Origin: a virus
DNA: 64,000 nucleotides
IMG/VR virus record: IMGVR_UViG_3300036770_005052
Coordinates: 62,001-126,000 of that record
Reading direction: 5' to 3' (one strand)
In this document: positions 824 to 6,279 of the stretch, piece by piece
Position numbering within the stretch: the stretch's first letter is position 1
How the letters are laid out: every line of letters begins with the position of its first letter
Notes under the pieces: generated by a model
Database searches by the model: none
Seen by the model: only the letters and a program-made list of their open reading frames with translations
What the model was told of the DNA's origin: nothing
Translations under genes and position numbers: made by a program

Positions 824-875
824 CGTTCATCCCTTTGGGACGGAAGTAAGCCGACTCGGAACGGATCGTTCATCT
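824..875 (+). promoter_or_regulatory. Glutamine-riboswitch-like leader (glnA / Downstream-peptide class)
   Basis: The leader shows the hallmarks I recall for this RNA class: CGTTC (824-828) pairs with GAACG (859-863); a small hairpin CCC-TTT-GGG lies at 831-839; then the conserved ACGGAAGTAAG (840-850) and CCGACT (851-856). CGG at 841-843 could form the pseudoknot with CCG at 851-853. Known members bind L-glutamine and control short peptide genes or glutamine synthetase control in cyanobacteria and their phages. The GGAACGGA at 858-865 lies where a ribosome site for the ATG at 876 would be, so forming the CGTTC/GAACG stem could hide it. Ligand is inferred from class membership. Confidence 0.8.
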
Positions 876-1028
876 ATGGAAACACTCATTCTGACATGCT
901 TACAAGCACACTTAATTGCTGGGAGAGTTCATCAACAGAACATTTCCAAACAGGTAAAGAATGATTTAATTTGGGAAATAAAACAGATCTCTCCAAAGGA
1001 GTGTAAAATAGACGCAAAAGCCGACTGA
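876..1028 (+). CDS. Riboswitch-associated 50-aa peptide (METLILTCLQA type)
   Basis: A 50-residue protein that begins METLILTCLQAHLIAG and ends with a SPKECKIDAKAD-like tail. I recall similar short peptides in marine cyanobacteria and cyanophages behind Downstream-peptide RNAs, but no function is established that I know of. By analogy with small glutamine-synthetase-inactivating factors controlled by the related glutamine riboswitch, a role in nitrogen signalling is plausible but unproven. The ATG at 876 lies six bases after the motif region CGTTCATCT. The stop sits inside a second aptamer-like segment (see findings). Confidence 0.75.
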   Translation: METLILTCLQAHLIAGRVHQQNISKQVKNDLIWEIKQISPKECKIDAKAD

Positions 1029-1067
1029 AGGAACGCTCTTTAACCTAAACCATTAAGGAGAAACCTA

Positions 1068-3449: not shown

Positions 3450-4129
3450 TGTTTAATCATATTGATATTGAACTCCCACAGTTGGAGCGTGAAACAATCG
3501 ATGGCGTAAGATATTACAAAGTCCCTGACGCAGAAGAACTTCTCCGACTGGTCTCCATCACTTCGGTGACCAGTCATTTTAATAAAGAAATTTTTGTTAA
3601 ATGGCGTAAAAAAGTCGGTGAAGAAGAAGCAGATAAGATTACTCGGCAGGCAACTAGTCGGGGAACTGATATGCATACTTTAGTTGAGCATCTTTTAAAA
3701 AACGAAGACCTTCCATCAGTTCAACCTCTTTCTGAGTTTTTATTTAAAATTGCAAAACCAGAACTCAATCGTATAAATAATATTTACGCCCTTGAGGGGT
3801 CCCTATATAGTAAGCAACTGGGAATCGCGGGAACAGTTGATTGTATTGCCGAATATAATGGTGAGTTAGCGATAATCGACTTTAAGACTTCTAAAAAACC
3901 AAAACCACGTGAGTGGATTGAGCATTATTTTGTTCAGTGTATGGCATATGGATGTATGCTTTACGAATTGACTGGAATTTCAGTCAAAAAACTTGTAATC
4001 ATTATGGCTTGCGAAAATGGAGAATGTATCGTTTATGAAGAATATGACAAATCAAAATACATCAAACTACTCACCCAATATATTAGAAAGTTTGTTAGAG
4101 ATAAATTGGAACTCTATGGAAACGAATAA
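3449..4129 (+). CDS. PD-(D/E)XK exonuclease-like protein
   Basis: A 226-residue protein with the nuclease core motif GTVDCIAEY (about residue 128 onward) followed by IIDFKTSKK (about 143-151), which supplies the D...(D/E)XK metal-binding residues. It resembles the exonucleases of T4-like cyanophages that are related to the mitochondrial MGME1 group. Likely substrate is single-stranded or flap DNA during replication or host DNA breakdown; this is inferred. The ATG at 3449 overlaps the phoH stop; a TTG just upstream is less likely. Confidence 0.75.
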   Translation: MFNHIDIELPQLERETIDGVRYYKVPDAEELLRLVSITSVTSHFNKEIFVKWRKKVGEEEADKITRQATSRGTDMHTLVEHLLKNEDLPSVQPLSEFLFKIAKPELNRINNIYALEGSLYSKQLGIAGTVDCIAEYNGELAIIDFKTSKKPKPREWIEHYFVQCMAYGCMLYELTGISVKKLVIIMACENGECIVYEEYDKSKYIKLLTQYIRKFVRDKLELYGNE

Positions 4130-5349: not shown

Positions 5350-6279
5350 ATGGGCTTTGCCGATCTTAAAAAACAATCTAAACTGGGCTCTCTGACCGCC
5401 AAACTGGTCAAAGAAGTCGAAAAAATGAATACCACCAATAGTTCTTCTGACGAACGTGTATGGAAGTTAGACGTAGATAAAAGTGGTAATGGTTTCGCAG
5501 TAATTCGTTTTCTTCCTGCTCCTGATGGGGAAGATCTTCCGTTTGTAAAGCTTTATAGCCACGCATTCCAAGGCACTGGTGGTTGGTATATTGAAAACTC
5601 CTTAACCACTATCGGCCAAAAAGATCCAGTTTCTGAATATAACACTCAACTCTGGAACAATGGAACTGATGCTGGTAAAGAATTAGCGCGTAAGCAAAAG
5701 CGCAAATTAACTTATATTAGCAACATTTATGTTGTGAAGGATCCTGCTAATCCCGAAAACGAAGGTAAAGTCTTTCTCTTTAAGTACGGTAAAAAAATCT
5801 TTGACAAACTGACTGCAGCTATGCAACCCGAGTTTGAAGATGAAGAAGCAATTGATCCTTTTGACTTCTGGCAAGGTGCCAACTTCAAGTTGAAGGCAAA
5901 AAATGTTGCTGGTTATCGTAACTATGATTCCAGCGAGTTTGCAAATCCCGCTCCTATGCTGGACGATGATGATGCAATGGAAGCGGTATGGAAGAAGCAA
6001 TATTCACTTGCCGAACTAGTTGCTGCCGATCAGTTCAAGACTTATGATGAACTGAAAAAGCGTCTTGATTCTGTTCTTGGTTCTAAGTCTTCTGTTCGTT
6101 TAGATGAAGAAGTTGAGAATGAGGAAGAGTATTCTCGTGGTTCTGTGAAGGAACTTGATGATGATCTTCGTTCAGAACTTAACAATCTGAAACCTACTCG
6201 ACGTGCTTCTGCACCTGTGGAGGAAGATGAGGATGATGATGCCCTCAGTTATTTTGCAAAACTTGCATCAGACGATTGA
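5350..6279 (+). CDS. gp32: Single-stranded DNA-binding protein gp32
   Basis: A 309-residue protein that coats single-stranded DNA in replication, recombination and repair. It has the basic N-terminal segment (LKKQSKLGSL), the OB-fold core with SHAFQGTGGWYIE and FGKKIFDKL-like segments, and a highly acidic C-terminal tail (EEDEDDDALSYF) used to recruit partners. The T4 zinc site needs a His and three Cys; His71 is kept, but the Cys positions carry roughly S84, V94 and Y97, so zinc is probably not bound. It has its own strong promoter and a terminator, consistent with very high expression. Confidence 0.95.
   Translation: MGFADLKKQSKLGSLTAKLVKEVEKMNTTNSSSDERVWKLDVDKSGNGFAVIRFLPAPDGEDLPFVKLYSHAFQGTGGWYIENSLTTIGQKDPVSEYNTQLWNNGTDAGKELARKQKRKLTYISNIYVVKDPANPENEGKVFLFKYGKKIFDKLTAAMQPEFEDEEAIDPFDFWQGANFKLKAKNVAGYRNYDSSEFANPAPMLDDDDAMEAVWKKQYSLAELVAADQFKTYDELKKRLDSVLGSKSSVRLDEEVENEEEYSRGSVKELDDDLRSELNNLKPTRRASAPVEEDEDDDALSYFAKLASDD

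Follow-up and report, generated by a model that had tools for sequence, protein, structure and literature searches.

The window, a stretch of 64,000 nucleotides, belongs to a virus record of 144 kb in which thyX, phoH and further genes characteristic of T4-like cyanophages are found. RF01739, the glutamine-I aptamer, is the sole Rfam family over threshold in these 64 kb; it matches positions 822–867 with 36 bits (cut-off 35), a segment that we call unit A, and occurs once in the whole virus record. Immediately downstream lie further aptamer sequences (unit B), a 50-codon ORF and a short gene whose product we refer to as YRGV. The features of this region, together with the pairings proposed below, are:

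785–813, + strand: promoter-like site of sigma-70 type (TTGCTA-17-TATAAT; 10/12 consensus matches, a consensus match only), just 5' of the aptamer
824–828, + strand: CGUUC of unit A, 5' strand of the outer P1; proposed partner 1031–1035 (compact-locus folds)
830–840, + strand: P2 of unit A, UCCC (830–833) with GGGA (837–840), a covarying helix with two-sided changes at 4/4 pairs
841–848, + strand: core of unit A, CGG-AAGUA; G843 (xA) is proposed to pair with C1036 (xA:yB covariation)
849–856, + strand: 5' strand of the long-range P3, AGCCGACU; proposed partner 1019–1026 (compensatory changes at three positions)
859–864, + strand: GAACG of unit A and G864 (yA); proposed inner P1 with 867–871, and G864 with C1015
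867–872, + strand: CGUUCA of unit B, the repeated 5' half (invariant in 48/48 peptide-selected contexts)
873–877, + strand: 5' strand of unit B P2, UCUAU, which holds A876-U877 of the AUG and pairs with 1008–1012 (covariation across the ORF)
876–1028, + strand: 50-aa ORF in the P2 loop of unit B (phrog_504-like, two conserved cysteines)
1008–1012, + strand: 3' strand of unit B P2, AUAGA, partner of 873–877
1013–1018, + strand: core of unit B, CGC-AAA; C1015 (xB) is proposed to pair with G864 (xB:yA haplotypes)
1019–1026, + strand: 3' strand of the long-range P3, proposed partner of 849–856; the stop codon begins at U1026
1031–1036, + strand: GAACG of unit B and C1036 (yB); 3' strand of the outer P1, proposed partner 824–828, and C1036 with G843
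1036–1060, + strand: hairpin CUCUUUAA (1036–1043) with UUAAGGAG (1053–1060) over the YRGV ribosome-binding site (minimum-free-energy fold)
1068–1202, + strand: YRGV (DUF4278-like) gene, 44 aa (phrog_5049, E = 3e-13)
1199–1300, + strand: gene of 33 aa overlapping the YRGV stop (phrog_545, E = 0.06)
1304–1333, + strand: intrinsic terminator-like hairpin at the end of the transcription unit

Elsewhere in the window, positions 3888–3924 (− strand) gave a sub-threshold match to the CRISPR repeat family RF01334 (29 bits versus 48), probably by chance.

The split unit B and its gene

A sequence-only reading of this stretch had proposed that the aptamer is followed by a second, split copy of itself, and the sequence agrees: the second 5' half, CGTTCATCT, lies at 867–875, directly 3' of the Rfam match at 822–867, and the second 3' half, GACGCAAAAGCCGACTGAAGGAACGC, at 1011–1036, where it contains the stop codon of the peptide gene (1026–1028). 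The suggestion that the gene takes the place of P2 was borne out as well, in that compact relatives carry an ordinary P2 hairpin before the same 3' half. Such compact second units are found in S-PM2, P-TIM68, Bellamy and S-CREM1 (33–35 bits with RF01739), while an ORF of 49–62 codons occupies the hairpin position in S-SRM01, DSL-LC02, DSL-LC03, P-HM1, P-SSM4, P-SSM7, P-RSM6, P-TIM40, S-CAM8 and AG-345-L05. In the window, P2 of unit B closes across the gene by pairing of UCUAU (873–877) with AUAGA (1008–1012), and unit B alone gave no RF01739 match because of the inserted ORF. We conclude that the split element is real: its halves make up one glutamine-aptamer unit in which a 50-codon gene stands in for the P2 loop.

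A search with the peptide only returned 241 viral places, of which 80, representing 48 distinct contexts, were kept. CGTTCATCT precedes the ATG in 48/48 of these contexts, the P2 bases UCUAU and AUAGA (or GUAGA) pair in 48/48, and the 3' half is retained in 47/48; the exception, L044, has no YRGV gene in the stretch seen. Conservation is 100% over the nine bases 5' of the ATG and mostly 65–85% in the preceding 30 bases. These counts indicate that the co-occurrence of the peptide gene with the aptamer halves is not due to chance. In a census of the fetched loci, second units were split in 148 distinct cases and compact in 29. The ATG lies 3–6 nt 3' of CGTTCA in 143 of the split loci, and in the same 143 the ORF terminates 16 nt into the 3' half, with its stop ending at a constant base of the aptamer. 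The P2 helix of unit B averages 6.75 bp over 83 distinct arm pairs, as compared with 4.05 ± 0.21 bp for shuffled partners (0/2000 as high). Its arms are of 15 types, with all five pairs present in 12, and they covary (UCUAU/AUAGA, UCCCA/UGGGA, UCCUU/AAGGA, UCCUC/GAGGA and UCUUA/UAAGA). At one locus (L144, nested ORF 5411–5563, − strand), P2 of the split unit reaches 14 continuous pairs by way of the first and the matching near-terminal codons. At two others (L023 and L024), the spacer between GAACG of unit A and CGTTC of unit B is ∼20 nt long rather than the usual 3–5 nt and may hold a small hairpin.

Among pairs of nested ORFs differing by 3–25%, compared with the aptamer-coding tail omitted, third codon positions take 62% of the differences and a crude dN/dS is 0.09, indicating that the nested ORF is a gene under purifying selection. 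The last five codons of the window ORF (DAKAD) and its stop codon fall in the aptamer 3' half; the terminal residues D-A-x-x-D derive from the aptamer sequence, and two cysteines are conserved. Marine members belong to phrog_504, a family with no assigned function, which the window copy matches weakly (E = 0.001). The AlphaFold model of the peptide, a hairpin of two helices with a mean pLDDT of 84.5, was too generic to support a fold search, and a match to LicT (E = 0.003, far under the cut-off) was judged to be due to chance. In S-SRM01 (L082, 1239–1406), an A:U pair of P3 is changed to C:G, the nested stop is lost and the peptide gains GRNAL; there the RNA pair is kept, so that the nested stop codon is sacrificed and the peptide is longer.

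Unit A is likewise split in 54 distinct loci, by an ORF of 61–73 codons that belongs to phrog_6471 in the two marine examples matched, and its P2 then has arms such as UCCUA/UAGGA. In 22 of the loci split in the first unit, the ORF stop is the UAA of the core CGCAAGUAA. A distant relationship between the first- and second-unit ORF families was detected in one pairwise hhalign comparison (95% probability). At L197 (1690–1887, − strand) and L228 (6689–6883, − strand), the second-unit protein resembles the first-unit family yet has the DAKAD tail, which argues that the C-terminus is set by the aptamer and not by the protein family. A recurring module thus appears to exist in these phages, with the aptamer supplying the start context, the stop codon and the C-terminus of the protein.

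Proposed pairing between the two units

As the sequence-only reading had noted, GAACG at 1031–1035 has two candidate partners, the CGTTC copies at 824–828 and 867–871. Both strands of 867–871/1031–1035 are invariant, so that covariation between them is impossible; since P1 strands never vary, the assignment made here was derived from the adjacent core pair, from P3 and from folding. In the glutamine-II structure, x (the third base after P2) pairs with y (the base after GAACG) as C19:G41, and the pocket and an equivalent long-range pair have been described for glutamine-I (PMC6698751). In freshwater-type loci, the window included, x and y are both G in unit A and both C in unit B, so that neither unit closes on itself, whereas both close when partners are exchanged. 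In glutamine-I, the equivalent of C19:G41 is G23:C60.

Across 241 loci (70 haplotypes), xA:yB is a standard pair in 70/70 (42 C:G, 27 G:C and one G:U), and xB:yA is C:G in 66, deviating in four; xA:yA and xB:yB, the pairs of a tandem arrangement, are standard in 61% and 60%. Of two search patterns used, one held the second 3' half largely constant and left xA, a8 and b1 free; the other constrained most of the first 3' half and required C or G to follow the first CG. In both patterns yB was free. Co-changes were counted on a tree of 140 tips made from the ORF sequences without the aptamer-coded tail. In these counts, which phage recombination could distort, xA and yB changed five times each, on the same branch in 5/5 cases and every time compensating, while a8:b1 and a5:b4 co-changed five times each, pairs of P2 in unit B four and five times, and the tandem pairs never. 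Block replacement does not explain the co-changes, because xA and yB flank the ORF while yA and xB are nearly constant.

Compensatory changes occur at three positions of P3: U:A is replaced by A:U or G:C at one end, G:C by A:U in the middle, and A:U by C:G at the opposite end. Length changes of its strands (849–856 and 1019–1026) are matched between units. The duplex energy of matched halves beats all 3000 shuffles, and covariation under the interlocked model lies above that of all shuffles and slides; P3 of the window contains two A.C mismatches. With P3 formed between the units, a local P1 could close only if its strand ran back across all eight pairs of P3 with 1–2 linking bases. Local P1 helices alongside an inter-unit P3 were therefore judged not feasible; the swapped P1 helices continue naturally from P3.

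An RNAalifold consensus of 23 compact loci gives the swapped P1, without drawing P3, and the swapped P1 is found in 23/23 minimum-free-energy folds of single compact loci. A covariance model made from the 23 compact loci, with the window excluded, matches 824–1036 with 72.6 bits (E = 9e-18). This model spans the ORF in the window and in L001 only; it was rejected as a detector of split loci, since the other split loci tested returned mostly partial matches. Ligand-free energies on the whole window, which leave aside the ligand and pseudoknot pairs, are −37.3 kcal/mol for the swapped form, −40.2 for the tandem form and −44.8 for the unconstrained fold.

We propose that two aptamer units of glutamine-I type interlock by domain swapping in 824–1036, with the gene as the P2 loop of the inner unit, a reading to which we give a probability of roughly 0.7; judged from the pairing patterns, the interlocked architecture of the double aptamer itself appears very likely. 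The RNA would run from CGUUC of unit A through P2, core, the 5' strand of P3 and GAACG of unit A, and continue with CGUUC of unit B, P2 (around the ORF), core, the 3' strand of P3 and GAACG of unit B. CGUUC of unit A and GAACG of unit B would form the outer P1 (824–828/1031–1035), GAACG of unit A and CGUUC of unit B an inner P1 hairpin (859–863/867–871), and the shared P3 (849–856/1019–1026) would join both three-way junctions tip to tip. The helix 867–871/1031–1035, which the sequence-only reading had favored checking, is then probably not the functional one: covariation of the core pair and P3 couples 1031–1035 with 824–828, and the partner of 867–871 is 859–863. That reading was right that a long-range aptamer unit spans the coding region, but what it described as a first aptamer followed by a split second appears as one interlocked double. 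With the contact nucleotides taken from glutamine-I and glutamine-II structures (PMC6698751), the outer swapped site has C824, G842, C1034 and G1035 plus the pair G843:C1036, corresponding to contacts C1, G22, C58 and G59, and the inner site has C867, G1014, C862 and G863 plus the pair C1015:G864. Each predicted swapped site has every nucleotide that contacts glutamine in the published structures.

Two ordinary tandem glutamine aptamers, each with local P1 and P3 and with the ORF in the second P2 loop, would be in keeping with the tandem glnA RNAs already described (PMC2864571), with each pair of halves scoring alone with RF01739, with both P1 sets being invariant, so that either could form, and with the small energy advantage of the tandem form in the ligand-free full window. 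However, xA:yA and xB:yB fail in ∼40% of haplotypes (as G.G and C.C) with 0 co-changes, the local P3s lack one of two pairs in about half of the compact sequences, and changes in P3 are compensated in the other unit. We regard this arrangement as quite improbable, and the core-pair and P3 covariation led us to reject independent tandem aptamers as the main state. Alternatively, both folds may form in turn, with unit A first folding on itself as it is transcribed and strand exchange then being brought about by further transcription or by glutamine, as a timed switch. GAACG of unit A fits either CGUUC copy (the spacer to CGUUC of unit B is 3–5 nt in 237/241 loci), unit A of the window passes the Rfam cut-off alone, and the energies of the local and swapped forms are close, which makes such a switch a possibility worth keeping in mind, but the local pairs show no covariation and selection is seen only for the swapped state. 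Turn-taking would be compatible with the swapped model, which describes the final state.

The gene itself could be a hitch-hiker in a tolerant loop, in which case the riboswitch would act on YRGV only and the start codon in P2 would be meaningless. P2 loops vary freely in length among glutamine aptamers, compact and split forms exist side by side, and other phages have a second insertion, in P2 of unit A; nevertheless, strong purifying selection on the ORF, a start and stop fixed relative to the aptamer in 143/148 loci, and the common origin of the A and B ORFs, whose tails are dictated by the host aptamer, make this explanation unlikely. That the RNA halves are relics, with only coding and promoter functions left, is scarcely credible given the compensatory changes at the core pair, P2 and P3 in many lineages. 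The two observations in its favor are that unit B of the window alone has no RF01739 match, owing to the insertion, and that L044 has lost the 3' half, but L044 has no YRGV gene in the stretch seen, consistent with a local loss of function.

Known riboswitches and proposed regulation

The proposed interlocked double resembles glutamine-I (RF01739) in its CGUUCA-P2-CGGAAGUA core, its GAAGGAACGC end, its contact nucleotides and its position 5' of a DUF4278-like gene. Glutamine-I cases known so far have one aptamer with its own P3 hairpin or are described as tandem copies, whereas here P1 is apparently swapped, P3 shared, and a protein gene enclosed by P2. A single-unit three-way junction with its own P3 hairpin was not found in these loci, in which the local P3 is not kept and P3 lies between the units; two junctions with one common P3 suggest a variant architecture. 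Glutamine-II (RF01704, Downstream-peptide RNA) shares the CGC/GAACGG core pair, as C19:G41, and a small peptide gene downstream, and its crystal showed strand-swapped dimers (PMC6698751). It differs in its 3' pseudoknot helix, absent here, and in that the Downstream-peptide gene follows the aptamer, whereas the gene here is inside. An assignment of the window to glutamine-II was rejected (17.6 bits versus a cut-off of 33, no 3' pseudoknot helix); unit A of one marine relative, alone, reaches 33.1 bits with RF01704. Whole ORFs are tolerated in peripheral loops of structured RNA in group I introns, but here there is no splicing or endonuclease, and the start and stop bases of the ORF belong to sensor helices. 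In direct-occlusion riboswitches (SAM-II, preQ1; PMC10907184), the ligand-bound fold similarly includes translation-initiation signals, although there the ribosome-binding site is at the aptamer 3' end and here the start codon, ORF and stop are internal.

The YRGV gene scores 19.8 bits with Pfam DUF4278 (cut-off 25.3) and matches phrog_5049 with E = 3e-13. Cyanobacterial glutamine riboswitches 5' of DUF4278 genes activate expression, that is, they are ON switches (reviewed in PMC6316151). By analogy with these reported cases, glutamine probably gates the YRGV gene, and the sensor probably acts on it as an ON switch. A possible link is the hairpin over the YRGV ribosome-binding site, which starts at C1036, the base that G843 would need in the bound core. 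This hairpin is frequent in the group with C at yB and missing from most marine leaders. A general anti-ribosome-binding-site hairpin was rejected, as it is clear in the former group only, and because it is not general in marine relatives the hairpin was left out of the evidence.

The proposed fold places start-codon bases A876 and U877 in P2 of unit B, U1026 of the stop codon in P3, and the site at which ribosomes would land on the nested ORF in the inner P1 hairpin. With start-codon bases in P2 and a stop base in P3, folding of the sensor and translation of the ORF would be mutually exclusive: the glutamine-bound fold would block initiation on the nested ORF, and ribosomes translating it would open the aptamer and dismantle the sensor. 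Owing to this exclusion, glutamine should reduce peptide synthesis, and we consider the odds about even that it shuts off the nested peptide. The two small proteins would then be produced under opposite glutamine conditions, but opposite regulation of the two genes is a tentative idea on which we would not rely. Similarly, we offer only as a conjecture the complete picture of a natural two-site domain-swapped riboswitch with a gene as its sensor loop, in which translation and sensing exclude each other and two proteins are oppositely controlled in infection.

Riboswitches are usually described as leaders placed 5' of a regulated gene. In these loci the gene lies within the aptamer, and helix bases are common to both. 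If correct, the locus would be a natural case of a sensor and a coding sequence in one RNA, and a possible route to cooperativity or reciprocal control. It would also explain the cyanophage small-protein families phrog_504 and phrog_6471, whose C-terminal DAKAD and GRK would be dictated by RNA structure. Single-aptamer family models would misread these loci, and tandem glutamine riboswitches elsewhere deserve re-examination.

Distribution

Glutamine aptamers, tandem copies and associated peptide genes are already known (PMC2864571, PMC6316151), and glnA RNAs in cyanophages have been noted previously (PMC9964418). In the open-access papers searched, we came across no prior account of a coding sequence nested in a glutamine aptamer, or of a pair of aptamers with a common P3 and swapped P1. 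The loci collected here suggest that many cyanobacterial viruses carry two interwoven glutamine-sensing switches with a small gene, in some cases two, inside.

Single RF01739 aptamers are common in cyanobacteria (42/194 genomes). In a screen of 251 Prochlorococcus-family genomes, a single contig carried the compact double aptamer; it belongs to G001, the genome that contains L254, and we read it as phage sequence. Three other genomes of this family gave weak matches of 43 nt, too short for a double aptamer. On the basis of this 251-genome screen, a host origin of the double aptamer was rejected. With one strict pattern, four genome-contig matches look like phage or mis-binned contigs. Two contigs binned as Dehalococcoidia (L252) and Acidimicrobiia (L253) have the second-unit 3' half and are probably mis-binned phage; L252 carries a complete compact double aptamer. 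In P-SSM4 (L086), the CDS PSSM4_169.1 (571–744) lies largely within a manA RNA match (516–701, 184 bits), so that either this CDS is spurious or the manA RNA also holds coding sequence.
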